A stretch of DNA of 64,000 nt from positions 53,165-117,164 of the forward strand of contig CAJXQJ010000012.1 of NCBI GenBank assembly GCA_913058245.1. Reading direction: 5' to 3'. The notes below the pieces were generated by a model. The model did not search any database. It worked only from the letters and a program-made list of their open reading frames with translations, and was not told the DNA's origin. Positions 22,990 to 38,686 of this stretch are shown piece by piece. Every line of letters begins with the position of its first letter. The first letter of the stretch is position 1. Origin of the DNA: an uncultured Colwellia sp. (GTDB taxonomy: Bacteria > Pseudomonadota > Gammaproteobacteria > Enterobacterales > Alteromonadaceae). Both the position numbers and the translations under genes were made by a program.

Positions 22990-23880
22990 TTAAAACGAAT
23001 TAAAGCGAGAAACGATACCGTCTAATTCAGATAAGTCACTATATGAAATCACCAACTTACCTTTACCTTTTTTATTGTGATTTATCGCAACTTGTGAACC
23101 TAATTTTTCAGATAAGTTTTGCTCTAACATTTTAGTATTTGGATCAATTACTTTTTCTTTTGGTTCTTTAGGTGGTTGTTGAACCTTTTTAATCAGTGCT
23201 TCTGTCTCACGTACCGTCAGCTCTTTTGCAACAACAACGCGAGCAGTGTTAGTTTGAATATCACTATCCAGAGCAAGTAATGCACGGGCATGACCCATTT
23301 CAATATCACCATGCTCTAATAAGGTTTTTACTTCACTATTTAAGTTATTCAAACGTAATAAATTGGTAACCGTTGTTCGAGACTTACCAACCGCATCGGC
23401 TACTTCTTGATGTGTTAATTCAAATTCAATTAATAGTCGTTCAAGCGCAATAGCCTCTTCCATGGCATTAAGATCTTCACGCTGAATGTTTTCAATTAAA
23501 GCAATAGCGACAGCTGCTTCGTCAGGCACTTGTTTAATTAAACAAGGAACCATATCAAGTTCTGCTATTTGCGCTGCGCGCCAACGTCGTTCACCGGCAA
23601 TAATTTCATAGCTGTGTTCACTTATTGGACGCACAACAATAGGTTGAATAATGCCTTGTGATTTAATTGAATTTGATAAGTCATCAAGTGCTTCTGCCGA
23701 CATATCTTTACGAGGCTGATACTTTCCTGGGTGTAATTGCTCAATCGGTAAATTTTGCAATTCAGTATCTTTGTTAGCAACGTCAGTCTTACTAGTTGCT
23801 TCTTCAGAAGTATTGCTTGCTGGTGTTGTTAATAAAGCATCAAGACCGCGACCTAGACCTCTGCGTTTACTTTGACTCAT
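22990..23880 (-). CDS. parB: Chromosome partitioning protein ParB
   Basis: RRGLGRGLDALL; ELQNLPIEQLHPGKYQPRK; IAGERRWRAAQIAEL; ENIQREDLNAMEEA. Confidence 0.98.
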   Translation of the reverse strand: MSQSKRRGLGRGLDALLTTPASNTSEEATSKTDVANKDTELQNLPIEQLHPGKYQPRKDMSAEALDDLSNSIKSQGIIQPIVVRPISEHSYEIIAGERRWRAAQIAELDMVPCLIKQVPDEAAVAIALIENIQREDLNAMEEAIALERLLIEFELTHQEVADAVGKSRTTVTNLLRLNNLNSEVKTLLEHGDIEMGHARALLALDSDIQTNTARVVVAKELTVRETEALIKKVQQPPKEPKEKVIDPNTKMLEQNLSEKLGSQVAINHNKKGKGKLVISYSDLSELDGIVSRFNSF

Positions 23881-24695
23881 AATGTTCCTTGCTCTTGCTC
23901 GGTTGTTGCTTGCGGTTTTGTTTGTTTATTTTGTTCTGCGCGTCGTAATATTTCACCGGCCAATGCAAGATATGCTTTTGCACCAGTTGACGATTTATCG
24001 TAATACATTGCTGGGGCACCGAAACTTGGCGCTTCTGCTAAGCGAACATTACGTGGAATAACGGTACGATAAACTTTGTCGCCAAAATGACGTTTTAATT
24101 GCTCTGAAACATCGTTTGCTAAACGATTACGCGGGTCGTACATGGTACGTAAAATACCTTCAATATGAAGCTTTCCATTAACCACAGAAGTAAGTTGGGA
24201 AATAGTATCCATTAGCGCTGTTAAACCTTCTAGCGCATAATATTCACATTGCATTGGCACTAAAACAGAGTCAGCTGCAGTCATAGCATTGACTGTCAGC
24301 ATATTTAAAGATGGTGGACAATCAATAATAATAAAATCGTAATCTTTTCTTACTTTCGATAAAGCATTTTTCAATCTATGTTCGCGAGAATAAACTTCCA
24401 TCAACTTAATTTCAGCAGCCGTTACATCACTATTAGCCGCGATAAGATCATAAACACCTGCGGTATTTTTACAAACAACTTGCTCGAAAGGACGTTCTTC
24501 AATAAGCAACTCAAAACAGGTTGCTGGAACTTCATATTTATCAATTCCGCTGCCCATAGTGGCATTGCCTTGAGGATCAAGATCAATCAATAATACTTTG
24601 CGCTTTGTTGCCGCAAGTGAAGCAGCTAAATTGACTGAGGTTGTTGTTTTGCCAACACCACCTTTTTGATTTGCAACCGCAATTATTTTTCCCAC
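23877..24695 (-). CDS. parA: Chromosome partitioning ATPase ParA/Soj
   Basis: MGKIIAVANQKGGVGKTTTSVNLAASLA; 4-bp overlap with parB. Confidence 0.98.
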   Translation of the reverse strand: MGKIIAVANQKGGVGKTTTSVNLAASLAATKRKVLLIDLDPQGNATMGSGIDKYEVPATCFELLIEERPFEQVVCKNTAGVYDLIAANSDVTAAEIKLMEVYSREHRLKNALSKVRKDYDFIIIDCPPSLNMLTVNAMTAADSVLVPMQCEYYALEGLTALMDTISQLTSVVNGKLHIEGILRTMYDPRNRLANDVSEQLKRHFGDKVYRTVIPRNVRLAEAPSFGAPAMYYDKSSTGAKAYLALAGEILRRAEQNKQTKPQATTEQEQGTL

Positions 24696-25393: not shown

Positions 25394-27283
25394 TTATGCG
25401 CTTTTGCGTAATAAACCATGTTTTTTCAGATAGACTAATAATAACGAAATTGCAGCAGGAGTAATACCAGAAATACGCGAAGCTTTACCAATAGTTTCAG
25501 GACGAGCGTCTGTTAGCTTAGCGACAACTTCATTCGACAGCCCTGAAATTTGCGTAAAATCGAAGTCACCAGGGATCTGTGTATTTTCATGACGTTTCTT
25601 TTTGGCAATATCATCTAGCTGACGATCAATATAGCCTGCGTACTTTATTTGAATTTCAACCTGCTCAGCTGCTTGTTTGTCAGCTAATTTTGGACCTAAA
25701 CCTTCAATTGACATTAATTCGCCATATTTAACTTCAGGTCGACGGACAAGATCTTCCAAGCTATTTTCACGACTCAACGGAGTTTTAAGTAAAGTATTCA
25801 CTTCTGCTGCGGCACTATGATCTTTTTGTACCCACACAGATCGTAGACGTTGACGTTCAAGCTCAATATTTTCCATTTTTTCATTAAAACGTTGCCAACG
25901 TTGATCGTCAACTAAACCAAGTTCGCGACCTTTCTCCGTTAAACGAATATCGGCATTGTCTTCACGCAATAATAAGCGGTATTCCGCACGAGACGTAAAC
26001 ATACGATAAGGTTCTTTGGTACCTAATGTTGCTAGATCGTCAACGAGTACGCCCATATAGGCTTGATCACGTGTTAGAACTAATTCTTCTTTACCTTGAA
26101 CACGGGCAGCGGCATTTGTCGCTGCAATTAAACCTTGTGCACCGGCTTCTTCATAACCAGTAGTACCGTTAATTTGCCCAGCAAAATATAAATTCTCAAT
26201 GAATTTGCTTTCAAGGGTTTGTTTTAAATCTCGCGGATCAAAAAAGTCATATTCAATCGCATAACCTGGGCGAGTAATATGGGCATTTTCAAAACCTTTG
26301 ATCGAGCGGACAAGATCCATTTGCACATCAAATGGTAAGCTGGTTGAAATACCATTAGGATAAATTTCGTGGGTTGTTAAACCTTCTGGCTCAACAAAAA
26401 TTTGGTGACTGTCTTTTTCAGCAAAACGATGTATTTTATCTTCAATTGATGGGCAGTATCTTGGACCTACACCTTCAATAACGCCAGTGTACATTGGTGA
26501 TCTATCTAAACCTGATTGAATAATTTCATGCGTTTTTTTATTGGTGTGGGTAATAAAACATGAAATTTGCTCTGGGTGATCTTTACCTGATCCCATAAAT
26601 GAAAATACTGGACGAGGATCGTCACCTGGTTGCTCTTCCATCACAGAAAAATCAAGTGTTCTAGCGTCTAAGCGTGGTGGGGTGCCTGTTTTCAAGCGAT
26701 CCATTCTAAATGGCATATCACGTAAACGTGCCGCTAAATTGACACTTGCCGGATCACCCGCTCGGCCACCTTGATAATTATTCAAGCCAATATGAATTTG
26801 TCCAGCAAGGAAAGTTCCAACCGTTAAAACAACGCTTTTAGCTTTAAACTTTAAGCCCATTTGTGTAGAAACACCGACGATCTTGTCATTTTCAAGAATA
26901 AGATCATCACAAGGTTGCTGAAATATCGTTAGGTTTTCTTGGTTTTCTAAGAAGTGACGAACAAAGTTTCGGTATAAACTACGATCCGCTTGAATACGTG
27001 TTGCACGAACGGCAGGGCCTTTACTGGCATTAAGTGTTCTAAACTGAATTGCAGAATGATCAGCTGCGGTAGCCATTAAGCCACCTAGTGCGTCAATCTC
27101 TTTAACTAAATGTCCTTTACCAATGCCACCTATGGCTGGATTACAAGACATTTGTCCTAGCGTATCAATGTTATGAGTCAGCAGTAGAGTTTTACACCCC
27201 ATACGTGCTGCAGCCAGTGATGCTTCTGTACCAGCATGACCACCACCAACAACAATTACGTCATAAGACTCTTGATACCACAT
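25394..27283 (-). CDS. mnmG: tRNA uridine-5-carboxymethylaminomethyl(34) synthesis enzyme MnmG (GidA)
   Basis: [44 protein letters not shown]. Confidence 0.99.
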
Positions 27284-27299
27284 AAATTATTGACCCTAG

Positions 27300-27720
27300 T
27301 TCGATTCATCTTGAAAAATTAAGAGCGGTATTTTAACGCTTTTTTTCACGTAGGGGAATGATCAAATCACTTAAAAGATCTTAGCTCGATCATTAAATAA
27401 TATATAAAGATCTTTAAATAGATCTTGTTATTATTACTTATTAGGATCCTCTTTTTCTGTTGATAAGTGATTTTTCAATATATAAAACAATATATTAGTT
27501 AATGATAAACCTTGTGATCAAACCTTGATCAATTAACTTATAAGCTTTGATCAAAACAGCTAGTTATCCACATATGTTTTTAGTGTTAATTATGTCTACT
27601 GAATAATAATAGAAAATTAATAGCTTTTACCCAAAGTTATACACATATCTATATTTTTACAACAGTTTCTGTGAATAACTTATGGGTAATTGCCTTATAG
27701 ATGATCTTTATTCACAGTTA
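27300..27720. other. oriC: Chromosomal replication origin oriC
   Basis: AT-rich mnmG-mioC intergenic region; nine GATC sites from 27360 to 27552; DnaA boxes TTATCCACA (27564-27572), TTATACACA (27637-27645), TGTGAATAA (27670-27678), TTATTCACA (27708-27716); E. coli-like CTTATTAGGATC. Confidence 0.93.
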
Positions 27721-34033: not shown

Positions 34034-35137
34034 ATGAAATTTTCATTAAATAGAGAATTACTTCTGAAACCTTTATTGTTGGTTTCAGGCGCTGTTGAAA
34101 GAAAAAGTACACTACCTATTTTAGGTAATATTCTTTTTGATGTAAGTGGGCAATCACTTACCCTAACCGCCACGGATTTAGAGCTAGAAATGGTTGCGTA
34201 TGCGTCAATTGACAATCATGCTGAAGACGGAAAAGTTACCATTCCAGCACGTAAACTTTTAGATATTTGTAAAAGTTTACCGGACGATTCAACACTGACG
34301 TTTGAATCTCATAACGATATTATAAAAATTAGTACTGGTCGTAGTAAATACTCCCTTTCAACGTTGCCAGCGAGTGACTTCCCTAATATTGAACAATGGC
34401 AGGGAGACGTAGAATTTAAGCTATTAAAGTCAGAGTTATTGCGCTTAATTGAAAGTACACATTTTTCAATGGCAAACCAAGACGTTCGCTATTACCTAAA
34501 TGGTATGTCGATAGAAACAGAAGGAAAGGAGATTCGCTCTGTTGCAACAGATGGTCATCGTTTAGCTATATGTAAAATTTCTAATGAAGATCTTGAGCTA
34601 CCTTCTCGACAAGTAATTGTACCGCGTAAAGGTATTTTAGAAATTATTCGTTTACTTGATCCTGTTGATGAAAGCGTGCAGGTATTTTTGGGTTCTAATC
34701 ATGTTCGCATAATTGACAGTGAATTTTCATTTACCAGTAAACTTGTTGATGGTCGTTTCCCTGACTATCGTCGTGTGTTACCTCGAAATGGCGATAAAAT
34801 TCTTAATGCAAATAAGGACGAGTTAAGGCAAGTACTTTCTCGCGCTTCAATATTGTCGAACGAAAAATTTAAAGGTGTTCGCCTAAACTTTGCTGCCACT
34901 GAATTGAAAATAACGGCTAATAACCCAGAGCAAGAGCAAGCAGAAGAAGTTATTGAAATTGACTTCCCATACGAAGAAGTCGAAATTGGTTTTAACGTGA
35001 GTTACGTATTAGACGTTTTAAATGCTATTAAAGAAACCGATGTTAAATTTACTCTAGCTGATGCCAACAGTAGTGTTGTTATTGAAGGTGGAGAGTCAGG
35101 CGAAGCTTTATATGTAGTAATGCCAATGCGATTGTAA
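34034..35137 (+). CDS. dnaN: DNA polymerase III beta sliding clamp
   Basis: MKFSLNRELLLKPLLLVSGAVERKSTLPILGNIL; C-term YVVMPMRL. Confidence 0.99.
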   Translation: MKFSLNRELLLKPLLLVSGAVERKSTLPILGNILFDVSGQSLTLTATDLELEMVAYASIDNHAEDGKVTIPARKLLDICKSLPDDSTLTFESHNDIIKISTGRSKYSLSTLPASDFPNIEQWQGDVEFKLLKSELLRLIESTHFSMANQDVRYYLNGMSIETEGKEIRSVATDGHRLAICKISNEDLELPSRQVIVPRKGILEIIRLLDPVDESVQVFLGSNHVRIIDSEFSFTSKLVDGRFPDYRRVLPRNGDKILNANKDELRQVLSRASILSNEKFKGVRLNFAATELKITANNPEQEQAEEVIEIDFPYEEVEIGFNVSYVLDVLNAIKETDVKFTLADANSSVVIEGGESGEALYVVMPMRL

Positions 35138-36231
35138 TGGCTATTGGTAAATTATTTGTACAAGATTTTCGTAATATAGAAAGTGTATCAGTAAATTTTC
35201 ATGCAGATGTAAATTTTATTATTGGTGATAACGGCAGTGGTAAAAGTAGTTTATTGGAAGCTATTTTTTATTTAGGACACGGTAAGTCGTTTCGTAGCGC
35301 CAAAGTAGACAATTTACTTCAGCACGAAAAACTTGCATTTACCGTTAGTGCTAAAACGGATAAAGACTGCCAGTTAGGTGTTCGTAAAACATTTGACTCT
35401 AGCTTAGGTAATACAGAAATAAGAATTGACGGAGAAAAGCAAGCAAAACTTTCTTCGCTTGCTAAAAACGTTGCTGTGCAGGTAATTACTCCAGAAAGTT
35501 TCAAATTGTTTTTTGGTGGTCCTAAGCAAAGGCGTCGATTTATAGATTTAGGATTGTTTCACGTGAAACATTCCTTTTCTGAACATTGGCGAGAGTTTTC
35601 TAGAGTGCTAAAACAGCGCAATGCCTGTTTAAGAAATAAGACGGATTTAAAAACCTTAGAGTACTGGAGTGAAGTTTTTGCTGAGCGCTCACAACAAATT
35701 GCAGACTTAAGATCTGACTATGTTGATGAGTTGACTAAAGAGTTAAGTTTTTGGTTAAAAACCATGTTACCGTCTGTATCTGATGATATAGTGATTCAAT
35801 ACCTGCAAGGATGGAATTCAAAGAAAAACTTACTCGATGTATTAAGCCAATATCGAGAAAAAGAATTGTCAACTGGGTATAGTTTATTTGGAGCACAAAA
35901 ATTTGATGTTCGTTTTGTTTTAAATGGCACGTCATTAGATAATCAATTATCACGTGGTCAACAGAAGTTGTTTTTACTGGCATTAACTTTTGCACAAGCA
36001 AAATTAATTGAAAGAGTTAATCGAGTAAAACCAATTTTATTAATAGATGATGTTGGTGCTGAATTAGATAGCAATTCTAGAGCATTATTAAATAATGCAA
36101 TAGCGGCGATAGATTGCCAAGTTATCGTAACAGCAATTGATAAAACAGCAGTGGAACAGTTAGTTCCACTAGAAAAAAACTACAGAATGTTTCACGTGAA
36201 ACATGGCAAACTATCAGTAATGAGTGAGTAG
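35137..36231 (+). CDS. recF: DNA replication and repair protein RecF
   Basis: IIGDNGSGKSSLLEAIFYLGHGKSFR; LLIDDVGAELD. Confidence 0.98.
   Translation: MAIGKLFVQDFRNIESVSVNFHADVNFIIGDNGSGKSSLLEAIFYLGHGKSFRSAKVDNLLQHEKLAFTVSAKTDKDCQLGVRKTFDSSLGNTEIRIDGEKQAKLSSLAKNVAVQVITPESFKLFFGGPKQRRRFIDLGLFHVKHSFSEHWREFSRVLKQRNACLRNKTDLKTLEYWSEVFAERSQQIADLRSDYVDELTKELSFWLKTMLPSVSDDIVIQYLQGWNSKKNLLDVLSQYREKELSTGYSLFGAQKFDVRFVLNGTSLDNQLSRGQQKLFLLALTFAQAKLIERVNRVKPILLIDDVGAELDSNSRALLNNAIAAIDCQVIVTAIDKTAVEQLVPLEKNYRMFHVKHGKLSVMSE
35555..35570. promoter_or_regulatory. parS: parS centromere site (within recF)
   Basis: Exact TGTTTCACGTGAAACA palindrome. Confidence 0.95.
36188..36203. promoter_or_regulatory. parS: parS centromere site (3' end of recF)
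   Basis: Exact TGTTTCACGTGAAACA palindrome. Confidence 0.95.
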
Positions 36232-36238
36232 GCTATAA

Positions 36239-38686
<2,448 letters not shown>

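Follow-up and report, generated by a model that had tools for sequence, protein, structure and literature searches.

The window, which is the whole 64-kb stretch of DNA that was analyzed, contains the gene order dnaA-dnaN-recF-gyrB. The recF gene lies at 35137-36231 on the forward strand and was recognized by Pfam PF02463 and by TIGR00611, with a score of 328 bits against a cut-off of 172. It is flanked on the same strand by dnaN upstream (34034-35137) and gyrB downstream (36242-38686). Inside recF there are two exact copies of TGTTTCACGTGAAACA, a 16-bp palindrome with the parS consensus TGTTYCACGTGRAACA. Site 1, at 35555-35570, covers recF codons 140-145 (L-FHVKH), and site 2, at 36188-36203, covers codons 351-356 (M-FHVKH). 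Together with its flanks, site 2 makes up an 18-bp palindrome, ATGTTTCACGTGAAACAT. The initial annotation had described two perfect palindromes 633 bp apart, both in recF and in one frame, with the RecF peptides GLFHVKHSF and RMFHVKHGK, and a sequence search of the window bore this out. No third copy of TGTTTCACGTGAAACA was found in the window, even with up to three mismatches allowed.

The window also encodes a ParA and a ParB protein. The parB gene (22990-23880, reverse strand) matched PF02195, PF17762 and PF23552, and its product could be aligned to Caulobacter ParB (6t1f). The parA gene (23877-24695, reverse strand) encodes a Walker ATPase with the motif QKGGVGKTT (PF13614, 1.7e-66). In ParB, the CTP motif GERRWRA is at residue 96. 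The residues R173 and G201 (Caulobacter numbering), whose roles in specifying parS have been described (PMC7383237), are conserved in the 6t1f alignment, the first in GKSR as R168 and the second in MGHAR. The parAB pair (22990-24695) adjoins an mnmG-type gene at 25394-27283, and this gene matches the mnmG-like loci of relatives. A probable oriC was placed at 27564-27716, where four DnaA-box-like 9-mers occur in 153 bp, on the basis of this motif cluster and of the GC skew, the sign of which switches near 28-29 kb. Since the DnaA-box cluster and the GC-skew switch map between parAB and the recF sites, oriC separates the two, and the earlier claim that parAB lies about 11 kb off, across oriC from the sites, held up. 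The parS pair is 8 kb from the cluster and the skew switch and, thus, in the origin-proximal domain. The cluster is beside the mnmG-type gene and about 5 kb from dnaA, which suggests that oriC is at 27564-27716 rather than adjoining dnaA.

A genome-wide exact search, which had been proposed as a check, found TGTTTCACGTGAAACA only at the two recF sites in this genome (2.96 Mb, 67% complete). The next-nearest matches had two mismatches and were background-like. Also, no further GTTYCACGTGRAAC core was detected beyond the recF pair genome-wide in this 67% complete assembly. From base composition, the number of exact copies expected by chance is 4e-7 per 1.1-kb gene and 0.001 in 2.96 Mb. This expectation, taken with the exact matches, ruled out a chance origin of the palindromes. 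A RecF scan of named genomes, which returned close relatives only, identified the genus as Cognaticolwellia. The same pair is found in all genomes of this genus that were compared: each of 17 (16 of them near complete) has exactly two GTTYCACGTGRAAC sites genome-wide, and their positions and 633-bp spacing are identical. Only 21% of the invariant residues in recF of the genus have an invariant codon, and the longest two runs of invariant codons, 351-361 and 140-145, are the two sites. The recF-gyrB junction (36187-36277) is near-invariant in the 17 congeners far past site 2, and the conserved stretch takes in GGCAAACTATCAGTA, the stop codon of recF and the initial codons of gyrB. Because this conservation extends beyond the parS site, it suggests a further DNA- or RNA-level element at the junction, perhaps for gyrB expression.

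The recF comparison was then widened to a sample of 244 genes, which covered the family, the order and the class and included ten outgroups that belong to the phylum but not to this class. In most of the Gammaproteobacteria sampled, both homologous recF positions (codons about 140 and about 352) carry a parS-like 16-mer, read in one frame. The initial annotation was, therefore, right in what it observed but too narrow in its local framing, as the codons are homologous across the class, beyond this genome or the Alteromonadales. Exact palindromy is local, and most class members have TGTTTCACGTGGAACA or TGTTCCACGTGGAACA. The variation is centered on four parS bases, namely 1, 5 (T/C, the free Phe wobble), 12 (A/G, Lys/Glu) and 16. 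Of these, bases 5 and 12 vary together in the fashion of a palindrome: TTT goes with AAA, and TTC goes with GAA (for the class sample, Fisher p 9e-4, uncorrected for relatedness). In the 193 genomes with ParB or presumed to have it, site 1 was present in 152 recF genes and site 2 in 174, and all 326 core matches in these genes were at the two positions. Genome-wide searches of the 33 genomes that had both a recF and a whole-genome count, mostly from different families and skewed toward those with good RecF matches, placed 62 of 66 core sites inside recF; in 30 of the 33, recF contained every core site. One class member with 6.2 Mb (G535) has both sites, at codons 141 and 351. These results point to a class-wide pattern of recF codons carrying parS, with a pair that would have been inherited from an early gammaproteobacterial ancestor. 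Three genomes (G216, G197 and G237) have an additional parS core 31-41 bp past site 2, directly after recF, and for G217 an additional parS site is listed directly past the recF end.

Synonymous constraint was tested on 114 recF codon columns in 45 class genomes, which came mostly from the best RecF matches. The six lowest p-values among the 114 columns were those of the H, V and E codons of the two sites, with log10 p values from -15.9 to -5.9, and the seventh-ranked column had a log10 p of -3.9. Since these p-values take the genomes as independent, the result to be relied on is how these columns rank among all the recF columns tested. In these genomes, V143 was encoded by GTG in 41 of 41 cases and V354 in 40 of 41, H142 by CAC in 42 of 43 and H353 in 40 of 41, and E144 by GAA in 37 of 37 and E355 in 33 of 35. 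The Phe wobbles were mixed at both sites (24:21 and 21:23), in line with the degeneracy of the corresponding parS base. A RecF alignment had been suggested in order to see whether FHVKH is constrained at the DNA level beyond amino-acid need, and the frozen synonymous positions show that it is, class-wide. The proposal that a centromere was selected within a coding sequence and constrains RecF agrees with this test and with the loss of the sites in families without ParB. The expectation that the copy near the C-terminus would be under lower constraint was not borne out, as site 2 was kept more often than site 1 (in 174 and 152 of the 193 genes, respectively). Site 2 also overlaps a separate protein motif, [MLVI]F.V..G, which mostly persists without ParB. 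A PDB search gave RecF structures of distant species, and the reported alignments end before site 2.

In the order and class samples, each genome was scored for ParB individually. In the bacterium's own family, about 15 members were tested and all were ParB-positive; the remainder, together with G535, G594, G602 and G604, were presumed positive. At least one core site was present in 178 of the 193 genomes with or presumed with ParB, and in 71 of the 85 ParB-positive genomes that were tested individually in the order and class samples, a count that leaves out the bacterium's own family. None of the 39 confident ParB-less genomes retained a core site; with two fragmented assemblies added, the count becomes 2 of 41. 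These two (G237 and G316) were not accepted as cases of a site without ParB, since the absence of ParB from a fragmented assembly was not trusted. Without ParB, site 1 mostly reads FHH or FHN, and site 2 reads MFRVEHG, MFTVEKG, IFHIKSG and others. By their genome size and relationship, two of the ParB-less families are probably the Enterobacteriaceae and the Pasteurellaceae, which have been described as having no par genes (PMC4368675). A contrast was also seen within one genus, where the genome in which ParB was found (G158) has both sites and the genome in which it was not found (G275) has neither, with codons TTC CAT GCG GAA CCT at site 1 and ATG TTC CAC GTA AAA CGT at site 2. The ten outgroups had neither site. 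On a RecF tree built with the site columns removed, ParB changed about five times, and three of these changes were robust. Independent contrasts of ParB loss against site loss gave three to five losses, with two to three in the expected direction and none clearly opposed. Since ParB losses are so few on the tree, the association cannot reach significance by independent contrasts.

Both core sites were missing in 15 of the 193 genomes: eight from the Vibrio-like family f21, four from family f6, and G392, G289 and G604. The initial annotation had named freely varying codons with parS clustered elsewhere as evidence against its reading. Such drift was seen only in these few ParB lineages, which do carry parS elsewhere: parS-type sites were located at other places in the searched genomes of the site-less ParB groups, including G289. 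The relocated sites are within about 25 kb of the oriC-side coordinates in f6 and G604, and about 60-70 kb from the origin end in f21, with one at about 130 kb. The eight f21 and four f6 genomes keep FHVE[HQ]G and GTG at site 2 and share a change of CAC to CAT there, as in TGTTTCATGTGGAACA. This sequence may be a relic, a weak site or the result of protein constraint. In family f169, two genomes (G604 and G596) have a parS core within another coding gene, a 459-aa ORF; therefore, parS can embed in other genes. Finally, four genomes (G200, G182, G248 and G261) have no detectable recF but carry parS between dnaN and gyrB, in the place that recF would occupy, either as a single site or as two sites 36-43 bp apart.

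One alternative explanation is that FHVKH is needed twice by RecF itself, in which case the palindrome would simply follow from conservation of the protein. The match does rest partly on protein need, as the F and H of site 1 and the F..G of site 2 are mostly retained even without ParB, and this partial compatibility of each palindrome with the protein may be why these spots were usable. However, the synonymous positions are frozen (GTG in 81 of 82 cases and CAC in 82 of 84), and the K/E, H/P/Q and F wobble positions vary as parS allows. Also, ParB-less families and outgroups outside the Gammaproteobacteria have other residues in place of the V and those that follow it at site 1, and in place of the H at site 2. 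A need of the protein for the peptide at both places is, thus, very unlikely, and a constraint by protein alone was ruled out by the codon test. We give just as little credence to another DNA signal in recF in place of parS, for example one bound by a regulator of the CACGTG type or one that controls gyrB. Such an element would fit the position of site 2, 39 bp upstream of gyrB, and the conservation of the recF-gyrB junction in the genus, which reaches far past the 16 bp, but site 1 is inside recF, 0.67 kb upstream of gyrB. Moreover, the full parS consensus is kept, including its degenerate positions, the sites are gone in ParB-less families, parS-type sites occur elsewhere in ParB lineages without the recF sites, and recF sites have been proven to be parS in Pseudomonas aeruginosa, as discussed below.

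A recent internal copying event (gene conversion) between the two recF spots, with no class-wide history, would explain why both 16-mers are identical in this genome. The flanks differ, however, and both positions have homologues of their own in other members of the class. The two sites are also often unlike within one gene, for example in G017, G020 and G028, and this explanation has next to nothing to recommend it.

We therefore consider it highly probable, judging from sequence comparison, that this bacterium has its chromosomal centromere (parS) in the two 16-bp palindromes, which share their bases with the coding sequence of recF. Sequence identity, positional homology, codon constraint, genome-wide uniqueness and the association with ParB were each observed directly. 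For this organism, we infer that ParB, made 11 kb away across oriC, would bind both sites and be loaded on each as a CTP-dependent clamp. The clamp would slide onto flanking DNA to give a partition complex, and ParA would move this complex and so separate the origins early in segregation. CTP-dependent loading and sliding of the clamp are established for other ParB proteins. The same bases would have a double reading, as DNA by ParB and as protein via x(TG)-TTY-CAC-GTG-RAA-CA, which gives [LMV]FHV[EK]H. Selection for parS beside oriC would freeze the recF codons; if ParB were lost, or if parS arose elsewhere, the codons would drift, and if recF were lost, parS could remain in the dnaN-gyrB gap. 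As to the direction of evolution, it seems reasonably likely, with less assurance than for this genome, that the gammaproteobacterial centromere has stayed in the dnaN-recF-gyrB interval from near the class root onward, as two sites at the same two codons of recF. In most lineages these would be the whole centromere; they would impose FHV[EK]H on RecF in every lineage that retains ParB along with the sites, and they could outlive recF. Since parS can outlive recF, the selected thing under this broader reading would be the position, not the gene.

The recF sites offer a clean case from nature of a single DNA segment that has long been under two codes, one for a protein and one for a centromere. 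Comparison groups are at hand in the ParB-less families, the ParB lineages with moved sites and the genomes without recF. A conserved RecF peptide could be explained without a requirement of protein function, and the centromere of most Gammaproteobacteria could be predicted from recF. Also, a minimal centromere of two sites (one in some lineages) would allow spacing and copy number to be tested through silent recoding. A caution is that deleting recF in these bacteria may take the centromere with it.

The presence of parS in recF is of a kind already known, because the recF parS of P. aeruginosa are functional and silent mutants lose ParB binding. In P. aeruginosa, recF contains parS1 and parS2 and is about 4 kb from oriC (PMC4368675, PMC5521831, PMC3909081), so that two of four functional parS are in this gene, and proper segregation requires that at least one of parS1-4 be present (PMC4368675, PMC5521831). 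Silent recF mutations that left RecF unchanged lowered ParB binding (PMC4368675, PMC5521831); the changes listed are at bases 2, 5, 8, 11 and 14 of parS1 and bases 5, 8, 11 and 14 of parS2 (PMC4368675 Table 1). P. aeruginosa ParB binds half-sites GTTCCAC or GTTTCAC (PMC7022226), in line with the free Phe wobble. In the accessible parts of the P. aeruginosa parS papers (PMC4368675, PMC5521831, PMC3909081), no comparative or codon-level analysis was found. No prior report of class-wide homology, codon evidence, near-exclusive use of recF or survival after recF loss was found in the available literature, a scope outside which the main 2007 parS survey (Livny et al.) falls.

The P. aeruginosa system is the closest in kind to the one described here. 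Its published silent changes fit xTG-TTC-CAC-GTG-GAA-CC and ATG-TTC-CAC-GTG-GAA-CA, i.e. FHVEP and MFHVEH, in a frame that would follow from the mutation positions and would correspond to that of sites 1 and 2 here. It differs in that two more functional sites lie beyond recF and six others are weak, whereas only the recF pair was found here. Bacillus subtilis Spo0J/parS and other chromosomal ParABS systems are alike in having a 16-bp palindrome, mostly near oriC, and a ParB with R173/G201, but they have several dispersed sites (PMC4368675) and no fixed pair in one gene. The repABC parS of Alphaproteobacteria are likewise centromere-like sites that have been studied for their position relative to replication genes (PMC9040568), but they belong to secondary replicons and to another parS/ParB pair.
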